Virus record (IMG/VR): IMGVR_UViG_3300048919_000123
Location: 1-64,000 of that record
Reading direction: 5' to 3' (one strand)
DNA from: a virus
Length of the DNA stretch: 64,000 nt
Both the position numbers and the translations under genes were made by a program. The notes beneath the pieces were generated by a model. That model did no database searches. It had not been told where the DNA came from and saw only the letters and a list, made by a program, of their open reading frames with translations. Position 1 is the first letter of the stretch; each line of letters opens with the position of its first letter. This document shows positions 36,647-53,180 of the stretch, piece by piece.

Positions 36647-37039
36647 GGTCTGGAATCCGTTCGTTGAAAGAGGCGTCGGCGAGGGCTTCTTGCCCCGTTA
36701 CAGCACACGTTGGCCGTTATCCGTGGGTCTATCGAGGATGAGGTAACTCTGGGTCACGGGCCGACTTAACTCGGAGATTAGCGGGGTTTTGAGGCAAAAG
36801 AAAGCCCCGCTTTACGGGCGGGGCTTTCAGTGTGTCAGTGACCAGGTGCCTCGCAGCGCTGTCGGGTGTGGTCGGGTAGCTACTCCTCCCATACTGTGCC
36901 GAAGCTTACTGTGCCCGCGGCTTACTGCGCGCTTTCCTGATCTACCGCACTTCAGTCCAGGTCGCCGGTGCCATTTCATCTCCGGCTTTGGGGCATACAC
37001 CCTGCGCAATGGCTGACGCTTTCAACCTGGAACTCTGGA
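36647..37039 (-). other. non-coding stretch before the packaging operon
   Basis: About 390 bases without a convincing gene. It holds the minus-strand terminator at 36800-36828 and a half-palindrome GGAGATTAGCG at 36774, repeated at 37184. A late promoter and, by analogy to lambda, the cos site may lie in 36647-36799, but I see no clear -10/-35 pair or cos-like repeat. Confidence 0.5.
36800..36828 (-). terminator. Rho-independent terminator
   Basis: GAAAGCCCCGC pairs with GCGGGGCTTTC around TTTACGG (11-bp stem). On the minus strand the stem is followed by TTTCTTTTGCC, a usable U-tract, so it would stop the tRNA/Acb2-like transcript before the HU gene. Confidence 0.78.
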
Positions 37040-37114
37040 AGAGGGTCAAGGATTCGAACCTTGGATAGCCGGTGTCAAAGACCGGTGCCTTAAGCCAGAC
37101 TTGGCGAACCCTCT
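37040..37114 (-). tRNA. tRNA-Gln (TTG)
   Basis: All four arms fold on the minus strand. The acceptor is AGAGGGT/ACCCTCT. The D-arm carries GCCAAG..AAGGC. The anticodon stem CCGGT/ACCGG holds the loop CTTTGAC with anticodon TTG, and the T-arm carries CAAGG-TTCGAAT-CCTTG. It resembles bacterial tRNA-Gln closely in the D and anticodon arms. 75 bases; CCA is not encoded. It would read CAA codons, which are rarer than CAG in this GC-rich genome. Confidence 0.93.
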
Positions 37115-49085: not shown

Positions 49086-49628
49086 ATGGCCGAATACACC
49101 CCCTACTTCCTGAAGTCAGGAATGAAACCCGTACCCCACACCCTGCTCGGCATCGAAGGCGTGCTGGTACAGGTCGAAGGCGAGAACGGGCTTTGGAAGG
49201 ATCAGCTCTTTGTCGCCTACCGCGACTTCAAAGGGCAAGGTGGCCGCTTCGAGATTTGCATCTCGTATGACAAAGGCGCGGCGGCGAACACCTCCAACTA
49301 TTTCGCGATCACCCGAGACTTTGACGGTGTGACCGGCCCCCTGGGCGAAGAGCAAGCTCGGGAGTTCTGGCCCGAGATCGCCCACCTGGTGAAGTGGCAC
49401 CTGTGCGAAGACGGGGTGCCTCTCCACTATATCGCCAACACGCTGTACCACGCAGGTGAGGGTAACTTCGCCTTGGCCCGCAGCTCCGCGAATTGGGATG
49501 ACGCCCCAGAGGAACTCCTGAAGGGCGAGGGCTGCTATCTGGAAGTCGCCCTGCGTGAACGCCTGCCAGCCCTCCAAACGCAATTTCGTGAAGAGCTGGC
49601 CGCGACCGGCCTGAAACTCAAACCGTAA
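49086..49628 (+). CDS. hypothetical protein, paralogue of the next gene
   Basis: 180 aa. Its part LVKWHLCEDGVPLHYIANTL (about residues 100-119) is clearly related to LIKWHLMSSDSPMHYVANTV in the 49641 protein, and both continue with YHA and then an ALARSS/FAAARS helix. Paralogues side by side suggest a duplication. No function known. Confidence 0.6.
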   Translation: MAEYTPYFLKSGMKPVPHTLLGIEGVLVQVEGENGLWKDQLFVAYRDFKGQGGRFEICISYDKGAAANTSNYFAITRDFDGVTGPLGEEQAREFWPEIAHLVKWHLCEDGVPLHYIANTLYHAGEGNFALARSSANWDDAPEELLKGEGCYLEVALRERLPALQTQFREELAATGLKLKP

Positions 49629-49640
49629 CTCGGAGCAATC

Positions 49641-50447
49641 ATGGAAACCAAAGCCACTCTCTGCGGCGTGCCTGGCACGCTGACCGTTGTACCGTGGGGC
49701 AGCCAAAGTCGTGACGGCAAGCCCGGCCTGTTTATGCACCAGAAGTGGGTGAGCGAACTCCGCACCAAGACGGTGAAAGGCCAGAAGATCCTGATGCACG
49801 CCGAAGTTCGCTTCGACGACAACTGCAAGAACGGCCACAACAGCTTCGCGGTCACCGGCTACGGCTGGTATGACAGCTGGAAGTCCCGAGACTCGGACTT
49901 CGGCGGGTGCTGCCACGACGAGATCGAGGCGGTGTTCCCGGAGCTGAAGCACCTGATCAAGTGGCACCTGATGTCCAGCGACAGCCCGATGCACTACGTG
50001 GCCAACACGGTGTATCACGCCAGCGACAAAGATTGCTGGGGCTTGGCAAAAGGTGAGAAACGCCAGCTCGTAAATGGCCGGACGAAGGAACCGGTGTGGA
50101 GCCTGCGAGCCGACGCTACCGACTGCAGCCTGAAGACGGCGTTAGGGGACAACGAAGACATCACCAATCTCCCCCTCTACCGCCTGGAGGACATGCTGGA
50201 TTCTGAGCAAGTGCCATCAGCACTGCCACGCCTGTTCTGGGAGCCTTGCTGGAAGGTTGGTGAGGGCAAAGAGCGCGACTTCGCCGCGGCCCGCTCCACC
50301 GGCATCTGGCCGGACGCCACCGACGAGCAGCTGAGTCTGCCGAAGGACGAGCTGACAGCCCTGCTGCTGGCACGCCTGCCTGGCATGGTGGCGGAGTTCA
50401 AGGCCGCCATCGAATCCACCGGATGCTTCGTCTGGGAGGCGCCATGA
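49641..50447 (+). CDS. hypothetical protein, paralogue of the previous gene
   Basis: 268 aa, longer than its paralogue by an insert of about 80 residues between the HYVANTVYHA motif and the FAAARSTGIW helix. The shared core has two His (WH, HY) that could bind a metal. It ends in the start of the next gene (ATGA). Confidence 0.6.
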   Translation: METKATLCGVPGTLTVVPWGSQSRDGKPGLFMHQKWVSELRTKTVKGQKILMHAEVRFDDNCKNGHNSFAVTGYGWYDSWKSRDSDFGGCCHDEIEAVFPELKHLIKWHLMSSDSPMHYVANTVYHASDKDCWGLAKGEKRQLVNGRTKEPVWSLRADATDCSLKTALGDNEDITNLPLYRLEDMLDSEQVPSALPRLFWEPCWKVGEGKERDFAAARSTGIWPDATDEQLSLPKDELTALLLARLPGMVAEFKAAIESTGCFVWEAP

Positions 50448-52033: not shown

Positions 52034-52104
52034 GAGGAGTAATCTCGGCAACCAGCGACAAAAGTACAACTCAAAGCACAAACCCAACCAGAAGGAAATG
52101 TCCC

Positions 52105-53016
52105 ATGAAACGAACGTTGCAGCATGCCGTTGTCCAGATGATTCTGTTCAGCACCCTGATCTTTTCAGCCCTCGCCCAAGCGGCGCCACCTGAAACCCTG
52201 AAGTTCTGCTCCGGTGGTGTCGGCGGCTTCTACGAAGGCCTGGCCACCAGCATTGGCGGAAAGATCACCAACGAGATCGGCAACACGCTCAAGGTGATGA
52301 CCACCGGCGGCAGCGTCGACAACGCCAAAAAGCTCAAGGCCGGTGACTGCGACATCGCGATCATCCAGGCCGACGCCGTGATCACCCAACCGATGCCGGC
52401 TTCCTTCAAGGCGATCAACGCCCACGAAGAAGTCGTGTACTGGCTCTACCCAAAGGGCGGCGAGGTGAACGACTTTGGCGACATGGAAAACGACAGCGTG
52501 GCGAAGAAATACGCTTTCGCCACCGTCAAAGGCAGCGGCGCAGCCGTGACCCTGAACAACTGGATCAAAACCGACAAGGACTACGCCGGCGCCGTGCCGG
52601 TCGAGTTCAAGGATTGGTACAGCGCGGCCGAAGCCGTGGCACAGGGGTTCACCATGGACAGCGGCGTTCGTGTCGACATCGCCGGCATGCTGTATATCGG
52701 TCGACTCGGCATGCTGCCGGCTGACATCACGTCCGACTTCGGCAACCAGATCATGGTCGGTGGCGTGGACGACAGCTCGTTCGAGAACGCCAAGGATGCC
52801 AACGGCAATCCGCTGTACACCCACTGCGCCATCGCCAAAGGCAAGACTTCCGGTCTGGAAGGCCCCGGCACGTTCAGCGACGTGAAAACCTACTGCCTCC
52901 GCGCTCAGGTGGTCTTCAACAATGCCTACCTGAACGGGCTGGATGAAGCAGAAACCACCGCGGTTCGCCGCGCCGTGGACAAGGGCATAAACAGCACGGT
53001 CAAGGTCGTGCGCTGA
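52105..53016 (+). CDS. secreted TAXI-type TRAP transporter solute-binding protein
   Basis: This 303-aa protein has a signal peptide (cut near AQA, residues 26-28) and then LKFCSGGVGGFYEGLATSIG. It continues TTGGSVDNAKKLKAGDCDIAIIQADAV. This is the start of TAXI-family periplasmic solute receptors, whose ligand is in known cases glutamate- or other acid-like. No permease follows, so the phage does not encode a full transporter. AAGGAA stands 9 bases before the ATG. Why a phage needs it is unknown; see findings. Confidence 0.78.
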   Translation: MKRTLQHAVVQMILFSTLIFSALAQAAPPETLKFCSGGVGGFYEGLATSIGGKITNEIGNTLKVMTTGGSVDNAKKLKAGDCDIAIIQADAVITQPMPASFKAINAHEEVVYWLYPKGGEVNDFGDMENDSVAKKYAFATVKGSGAAVTLNNWIKTDKDYAGAVPVEFKDWYSAAEAVAQGFTMDSGVRVDIAGMLYIGRLGMLPADITSDFGNQIMVGGVDDSSFENAKDANGNPLYTHCAIAKGKTSGLEGPGTFSDVKTYCLRAQVVFNNAYLNGLDEAETTAVRRAVDKGINSTVKVVR

Positions 53017-53180
53017 TGGACGGCTGGAAGTTTTTCCAGCGTCTGCTGTGCATGCTGGTGGTCTTCTGGCTGCTCACCAAACTGGTGGGCTTGCTGGTCG
53101 GCCTGCTGCTGTTTGTGATCGCGGTGATCCTTGCAGCCGGCGCCACGATCTGGCACTTCCGAAAGAAAATCCGCAGTTGA
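53016..53180 (+). CDS. 54-aa membrane protein coupled to the TAXI gene
   Basis: It starts in the TAXI stop (TGATG) and has one long or two short hydrophobic segments (residues 9-45: LLCMLVVFWLLTKLVGLLVG and on) and a basic end HFRKKIRS. It is far too small for a DctQ/DctM permease. The tight coupling suggests that the two proteins work together. Confidence 0.6.
   Translation: MDGWKFFQRLLCMLVVFWLLTKLVGLLVGLLLFVIAVILAAGATIWHFRKKIRS

Follow-up and report, generated by a model that had tools for sequence, protein, structure and literature searches.

Why should a phage encode a secreted solute receptor when it carries no permease to serve it, and why should the gene of this receptor run directly into that of a tiny membrane protein? 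The question is raised by positions 52,105 to 53,180 of the window, the first 64,000 nucleotides of IMG/VR virus record IMGVR_UViG_3300048919_000123, which counts 83,664 bases and is related to Pseudomonas phage Lana. The first gene (52105..53016, + strand, ATG start) encodes a TAXI-type solute-binding protein of 303 amino acids belonging to phrog_6856, as judged from its open reading frame (ORF), profile and fold evidence, and 84.5% identical to the TAXI protein of Lana. The second (53016..53180, + strand, ATG start) encodes a small membrane protein of 54 amino acids with a basic C-terminal tail, WHFRKKIRS, delimited by its ORF, hydropathy and an AlphaFold model. As a preliminary description of this DNA had claimed, the stop codon of the former and the start codon of the latter share one base (TGATG). 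A Shine-Dalgarno-like stretch precedes both ORFs, that of the TAXI gene, read from the sequence, being AAGGAA at 52092..52097 (+), 7 nt upstream of the ATG, and the second gene is probably read by translational coupling. The N-terminus of the receptor (MKR..FSTLIFSALAQA) was judged by eye to be signal-peptide-like, with a putative cleavage site near Ala26/Ala27 (52105..52182, +) and a low predicted local distance difference test score (pLDDT) at residues 1-30, and the protein is accordingly predicted to be secreted, as had been described. We hypothesize, tentatively and on the basis of sequences and structural models, that the two products form a ligand-gated sensor-effector pair at the inner membrane.

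The identity of the first product as a TAXI-type protein is confirmed by profile comparison and structure prediction. The protein scores 27.1 bits against Pfam NMT1_3 (PF16868), just above the cut-off of 27, and 50.3 bits against NCBIfam TRAP_TAXI (TIGR02122), below the cut-off of 84.35, and it matches phrog_6856, to which PHROG assigns no function, at 2.7e-39. A profile built from 57 phage relatives retrieved from the PDB seven TAXI-type sequences at E <=1e-15, the best at 1.3e-22, and nothing else below E 0.04; the ankyrin-like designed proteins heading a single-sequence PDB search were dismissed as chance matches, since the profile of the relatives finds TAXI proteins only. The AlphaFold model, computed from 47 phage relatives, has the two-lobed TAXI fold (pLDDT 89.6; predicted template modelling score 0.83). 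Foldseek returned TAXI proteins in all of the top seven PDB chains, the first being VcGluP with glutamate, and in VIA the top six entries were all TAXI proteins with Z from 19.1 to 21.9, the remaining entries staying at Z 15.0 or below. The best solved structures matching the model are glutamate-bound TAXI proteins.

Whether such a receptor could still bind a ligand depends on its pocket. In VcGluP of Vibrio, L-glutamate is reported to be held by Y45, S75, Q93, E125 and the main chain of G156, and the substitutions Y45A and Q93A to lower the affinity 213- and 990-fold, respectively, Y45 being present in 78% and Q93 in 54% of the TAXI sequences of the published alignment (PMC11574862). In the window protein the equivalent residues would be Tyr43 (52231..52233), Ser70 (52312..52314), Gln88 (52366..52368), Glu109 (52429..52431) and Gly145 of a GSG loop (52537..52539), all on the + strand; Tyr, Gln, Glu and Gly are found in 57/57 non-redundant phage relatives, and the serine position holds Ser in 48 and Thr in nine. 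Among 13 sampled chromosomal TRAP-type TAXI proteins the Tyr is present in 12, and the Gln and the Glu in 10 each. Alignment and predicted fold thus show a glutamate-type pocket that is complete, the invariance across the phage relatives indicates strong constraint upon it, and the ligand is likely to be L-glutamate or a close analogue. A complete pocket also speaks against a ligand-free block and against a pure structural decoy. The likeness to the TRAP glutamate receptors VcGluP and TtGluBP extends from these five ligand positions to the fold (VIA Z 21-22 over 242-246 residues), although identity is only 16-19%, no QM permease accompanies the phage protein in its record, and the phage lineage has Asp/Glu72, Tyr160 and Gly181, residues mostly missing from the 13 TRAP-type proteins.

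The second question is whether the small membrane-protein gene stands beside the receptor by accident. In annotated records, a coding sequence for a membrane protein of at most 150 amino acids adjoins 15 of 19 TAXI genes versus 13 of 87 other coding sequences of at least 150 amino acids (Fisher p 1.2e-7); these 19 records are not all independent, and by our grouping they represent 11 lineages, eight of them with the neighbour. A wider collection, in which 168 of 172 sequences contained a TAXI ORF, was reduced to 64 representatives at 90% identity, and 59 loci were counted after omission of L118, L132, L145, L158 and L161. A candidate small membrane neighbour occurs in 46 of the 59, with L019, L057, L136 and L160 doubtful, and in 27 it either overlaps the TAXI stop or directly adjoins it; three of the 13 misses (L142, L151, L152) have a homologous short protein just below the hydropathy threshold. 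Under a stricter rule, 26/59 loci have a small membrane-protein gene directly at the TAXI stop, as against 4/483 other ORFs of the same loci. The pairing is not due to chance. In Lana-like phages, enterobacterial prophages, Klebsiella jumbo phages and Rhizobiales phages the neighbour follows the TAXI gene at a short distance, and in Erwinia jumbo phages (TciB-like), in BDU-MI-1 and in EBPR siphovirus 2 (37-39 amino acids) it lies upstream; in Vibrio phages it is longer, with an N-terminal membrane segment, and two of three such proteins tested belong to phrog_301. Apart from this neighbour, we saw no gene family beside TAXI that returns from one major lineage to another. These counts bear on the idea that the receptor acts alone as a periplasmic sink tying up its ligand, the small gene being a frequent, independent moron: lineages lacking a partner do exist, but overlap or abutment in 27 of 59 loci and the strong enrichment over controls count against it, and we regard it as quite unlikely. 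Whereas the pair had been taken as a feature of this phage, its receptor is a member of a wide phage family, phrog_6856, whose partners differ in sequence between lineages, counterparts adjoining the TAXI gene in most relatives. Neither of the two outcomes that the preliminary description had named as refuting it, a model lacking the TAXI fold and a loss of the pairing in relatives, was obtained.

Most partners measure 49-68 amino acids and have two hydrophobic segments with a very short turn between them, followed by a C-terminal tail of net positive charge; in a small number there is a single segment. The 54-amino-acid window protein has two membrane segments by hydropathy. Searches with Pfam, PHROG and NCBIfam profiles gave no family match for it above noise, and it did not match DUF3927 or phrog_1470 (TciB) at E 1. 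The 59-amino-acid partner of Erwinia phage Caitlin, on the other hand, matches phrog_1470 at 1.5e-19. A DctQ-like hairpin was considered, Caitlin TciB giving DctQ at E 0.016, but this match falls below the cut-off and was too weak to be used. The partners change fast: in the pairs compared within the Lana group, identity is 85-91% for the TAXI protein, 46-84% for the flanking genes and 22-53% for the partner, and in the enterobacterial group 71-89% for the TAXI protein and 24-43% for the partner, so that, among the four genes compared, conservation is highest for the receptor and lowest for the partner. A sequence that changes rapidly while the shape is retained is what diversifying pressure on an effector could produce, and the divergence in the Lana group was counted in favor of a sensor-effector pair, as with SieA of P22, whose sequence types are reported to be less than 30% identical to one another with a similar predicted topology (PMC10883804). 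SieA, HK97 gp15 and T4 Imm, which act in superinfection exclusion, are likewise small phage-encoded inner-membrane proteins, SieA sharing with the partner both the strong sequence variation and the similar predicted topology. To our knowledge, a secreted solute-binding partner is known for none of the three.

Binding proteins carried by phages are commonly regarded as aids to metabolism that rely on a host permease. Cyanophages, for instance, encode an orphan PstS, which resembles the present receptor in lacking a permease of its own but belongs to another family, and we know of no small membrane partner described for it. Phages carry other orphan solute-binding proteins as well, since the BFVD matches include several proteins of uncultured Caudovirales with a Bug/TTT-type binding-protein annotation. 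In agreement with the preliminary description, which had noted that no TRAP permease is encoded, the possibly incomplete record of 83,664 bases gave no match to TRAP_fused (the QM membrane component; E 0.1) or to Glt_symporter (GltS), and no GltS adjoins or is fused with the TAXI protein; in the same type of search the GltS family was matched in an E. coli control genome. A rewired uptake is therefore to be weighed as the main rival, in which the phage TAXI protein would raise the affinity of a host secondary transporter, either GltS or the membrane component of a host TAXI-TRAP system, with the small protein as adaptor or anchor, and glutamate would serve nucleotide synthesis or osmotic balance during replication. 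This is possible, and nearly as likely as a sensor-effector pair, because a TAXI-GltS pair is known: in Bordetella pertussis a TAXI protein is reported to be translationally coupled to the symporter GltS in place of a TRAP permease (PMC12344293). That case resembles ours in coupling a TAXI protein to a non-TRAP membrane protein, yet the latter is a full symporter there and a 54-amino-acid protein here. The complete glutamate pocket, the presence of GltS in the E. coli control genome and, in several lineages, the proximity of the module to phage tRNA genes, where genes that assist translation lie, would also suit an uptake role. It is harder to reconcile with the missing permease, with a single TAXI lineage spread over hosts as unlike as Rhizobium and Klebsiella, and with partners that have no detectable sequence in common. 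Moreover, we know of no TAXI-type permease in E. coli-type hosts.

What else can occupy the place of the receptor is indicated by enterobacterial prophages. In E. coli MLI106K4 the order is a DUF1133 gene, tRNA-Thr, TAXI, a 49-amino-acid protein, two holins and a GH19 endolysin, whereas in E. coli UMNK88 a TerB-like gene and a DUF3927 protein stand at the same place before holin, holin and GH19. In Caitlin, TerB, TciB and TAXI are consecutive, and in phage P1 tciA, tciB and tciC lie between tRNAs; these three genes are reported as nonessential in a CRISPR interference screen (PMC10695390). Lana also encodes a TerB-like protein (gp48; L215:44367-44807), apart from its TAXI pair. A helix-turn-helix gene precedes TAXI by about 20 nt in three cases, the Rhizobiales prophage L120 and the phages PBC5 and Atu_ph08.

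The slot is not the only element in common. A leader of about 100 nt lies upstream of TAXI in enterobacterial prophages and upstream of TerB in UMNK88 and Erwinia phages (copies at L116:2898-3003, L172:19980-20085, L174:4996-5107 and L014:1238-1340), with a predicted pseudoknot-like structure in which the Shine-Dalgarno sequence is paired. In the arrangement drawn for 12 sequences, the Shine-Dalgarno bases are paired in an outer helix, which encloses a long helix (GGGGUGAGCC/GGCUCACCCC), and a third helix of the CCGCAGAG/CUCUGCGG type crosses the other two; in this third helix three pairs change at both positions, and pairing extends to 100% of the cells. For the structure as a whole the paired fraction is 93.5% of cells, versus 42-56% when the alignment is slid, for a structure picked after the alignment had been viewed; two of five covariation measures are no higher than in shuffles, and the long helix is broken in some rows as aligned. 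Fold z-scores were -4.5, -3.2, -3.2 and -2.1, and just -0.8 for UMNK88. In Rfam searches of the leader only tRNAs reached the gathering score; four microRNA families matched at chance level, and no family fits. The L116 query matches 15 of 5,426 E. coli genomes, the TAXI gene being present in three and the leader stretch alone in 12. No comparable leader was seen upstream of the window TAXI gene. Because slot and leader are shared, we infer that one kind of membrane output can be fed by either of two inputs, TerB or TAXI. The P1 TciA/TciB and lambdoid TerB-DUF3927 modules resemble the TAXI pair in associating a small basic-tailed membrane protein with a second protein, but have TerB in place of TAXI.

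The order in MLI106K4 also suggests a lysis-timing sensor, in which the small protein would act on the holin and the TAXI protein would read extracellular glutamate freed by lysing neighbors. The pair directly precedes holin, holin and GH19 endolysin in this prophage, and small membrane proteins with a basic tail can look like class II holins or antiholins. As a general rule, however, adjacency to lysis genes had to be rejected, the lysozyme gene of Lana being about 40 kb away; TerB with DUF3927 occupies the same slot, which is also used by unrelated late morons, and we consider this explanation improbable. A bolder version of the sensor-effector pair, which we hold to be unlikely though somewhat less so, is that the secreted receptor would read free glutamate, for example from lysing neighbors, and gate a small membrane effector that delays lysis or excludes rivals, the enterobacterial phages adding a pseudoknotted RNA leader, common with the TerB/TciB module, which would hide the ribosome-binding site.

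How widely is the receptor distributed? With the window protein as query, tblastn of GenBank phages gave 303 records, 294 of Vibrio and mostly near-copies; the Caitlin protein gave 47 and a Rhizobium phage protein 321, these three sets overlapping and being counted separately. TAXI-bearing phages include Noxifer, Vibrio T5-like and Ackermannviridae phages, jumbo phages of Erwinia, Klebsiella and Salmonella, and phages of Pseudaeromonas, Rhizobium, Sinorhizobium, Agrobacterium, Bradyrhizobium, Ruegeria, Rhodobacter and Phaeobacter. IMG/VR scans added loci, many apparently from isolate genomes, and a scan with the DSS3P8 protein as query found no relative. A quick tree, with long branches and gammaproteobacterial chromosomal sampling only, placed the 57 phage rows and three Oceanospirillaceae chromosomal orphans opposite the 13 TRAP-type gammaproteobacterial proteins with moderate support (Shimodaira-Hasegawa-like approximate likelihood ratio test 88); alignment and tree omit seven of the 64 representatives (L055, L057, L118, L132, L145, L158 and L161), whose ORFs are truncated, overlong or fused. 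In L145, L158 and L161 the TAXI domain closes ORFs of 531-534 amino acids with a Ser/Arg-rich start, and the upstream ORF resembles, by eye, a glutamate-receptor-type channel. A class-wide search for chromosomal relatives with query A2 was positive in two of 369 genomes. A phage-type orphan TAXI gene also lies on contigs of Oceanospirillales metagenome-assembled genomes (L177:7905-8846, also L178 and L179), where no neighboring permease or small membrane partner was seen. In the jumbo phage Noxifer (L003:1450-6825) about 2.6 kb separate the TAXI gene from the nuclear shell gene upstream of it, and a small membrane neighbor is absent. A plasmid DNA search with the window region gave no match. 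The L116 TAXI protein matches 117 plasmid records (108 of Klebsiella), only two of which carry most of the protein; nearly all the other listed matches are confined to residues 211-281, at about 94%, and represent a plasmid-borne remnant of the module. Within the window, the neighboring ORFs 49086-49628 and 49641-50447 appear by eye to be paralogue-like (KWHL and HYxANTxYHA stretches common to both), and a tRNA-Gln (ttg; 37036-37114, minus strand) is the only tRNA found. In previous annotation, a "TRAP solute receptor-like protein" is named in RP12/RP31 (PMC5468394), and the portion of the pSal-SNUABM-04 text available mentions TerB and not TAXI (PMC7823757). In our literature searches no paper on a phage TAXI and small membrane protein pair was found, in line with the earlier statement that none had been described, and TciB and DUF3927 yielded mentions only.

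Several observations weigh against a sensor-effector pair. An adjacent candidate is absent in Noxifer, its relative L170, KLEP7, L039, L064, L137, L155, L162 and L164, as it is beside the chromosomal orphans L177-L179, which indicates that the partner is not strictly needed, and in DSS3P8 a clear membrane candidate stands two genes away. Partners of different lineages have no detectable homology at the settings used, and their fast change equally fits a weakly constrained membrane anchor. AlphaFold models the 54-amino-acid protein as one continuous helix without a hairpin (residues 3-53, pLDDT 87.8), so that, hydropathy giving two segments, it may cross the membrane once or twice. The defence profiles of PADLOC-DB 2.0.0 matched none of nine proteins at E 0.1.

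Nevertheless, a glutamate-type receptor joined to a variable small membrane protein, and swappable in enterobacterial phages with TerB and a similar protein, is best fitted by a sensor and a membrane effector. According to this model, the first gene would supply a secreted TAXI protein of the phage-type lineage with its glutamate-type pocket retained, and the second a small protein of the inner membrane whose tail carries positive charge. The closed, ligand-bound receptor would dock either on the small protein or on a neighbouring membrane protein of the host, and this docking would switch the state of the inner membrane in the infected cell or lysogen. The most likely purpose of such an arrangement would be protection, either exclusion of competitors or protection from stress, rather than a nutrient importer of the phage's own. 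One phage-type receptor lineage with an intact predicted glutamate pocket is repeatedly paired with sequence-unrelated tiny membrane proteins, across lytic jumbo, T5-like and temperate phages of several proteobacterial orders. This recurrence suggests that the pair acts at the inner membrane of infected cells in a manner not described before, and it yields a hypothesis of function for phrog_6856 as well as for TciB/DUF3927 proteins in P1 and lambdoid prophages.
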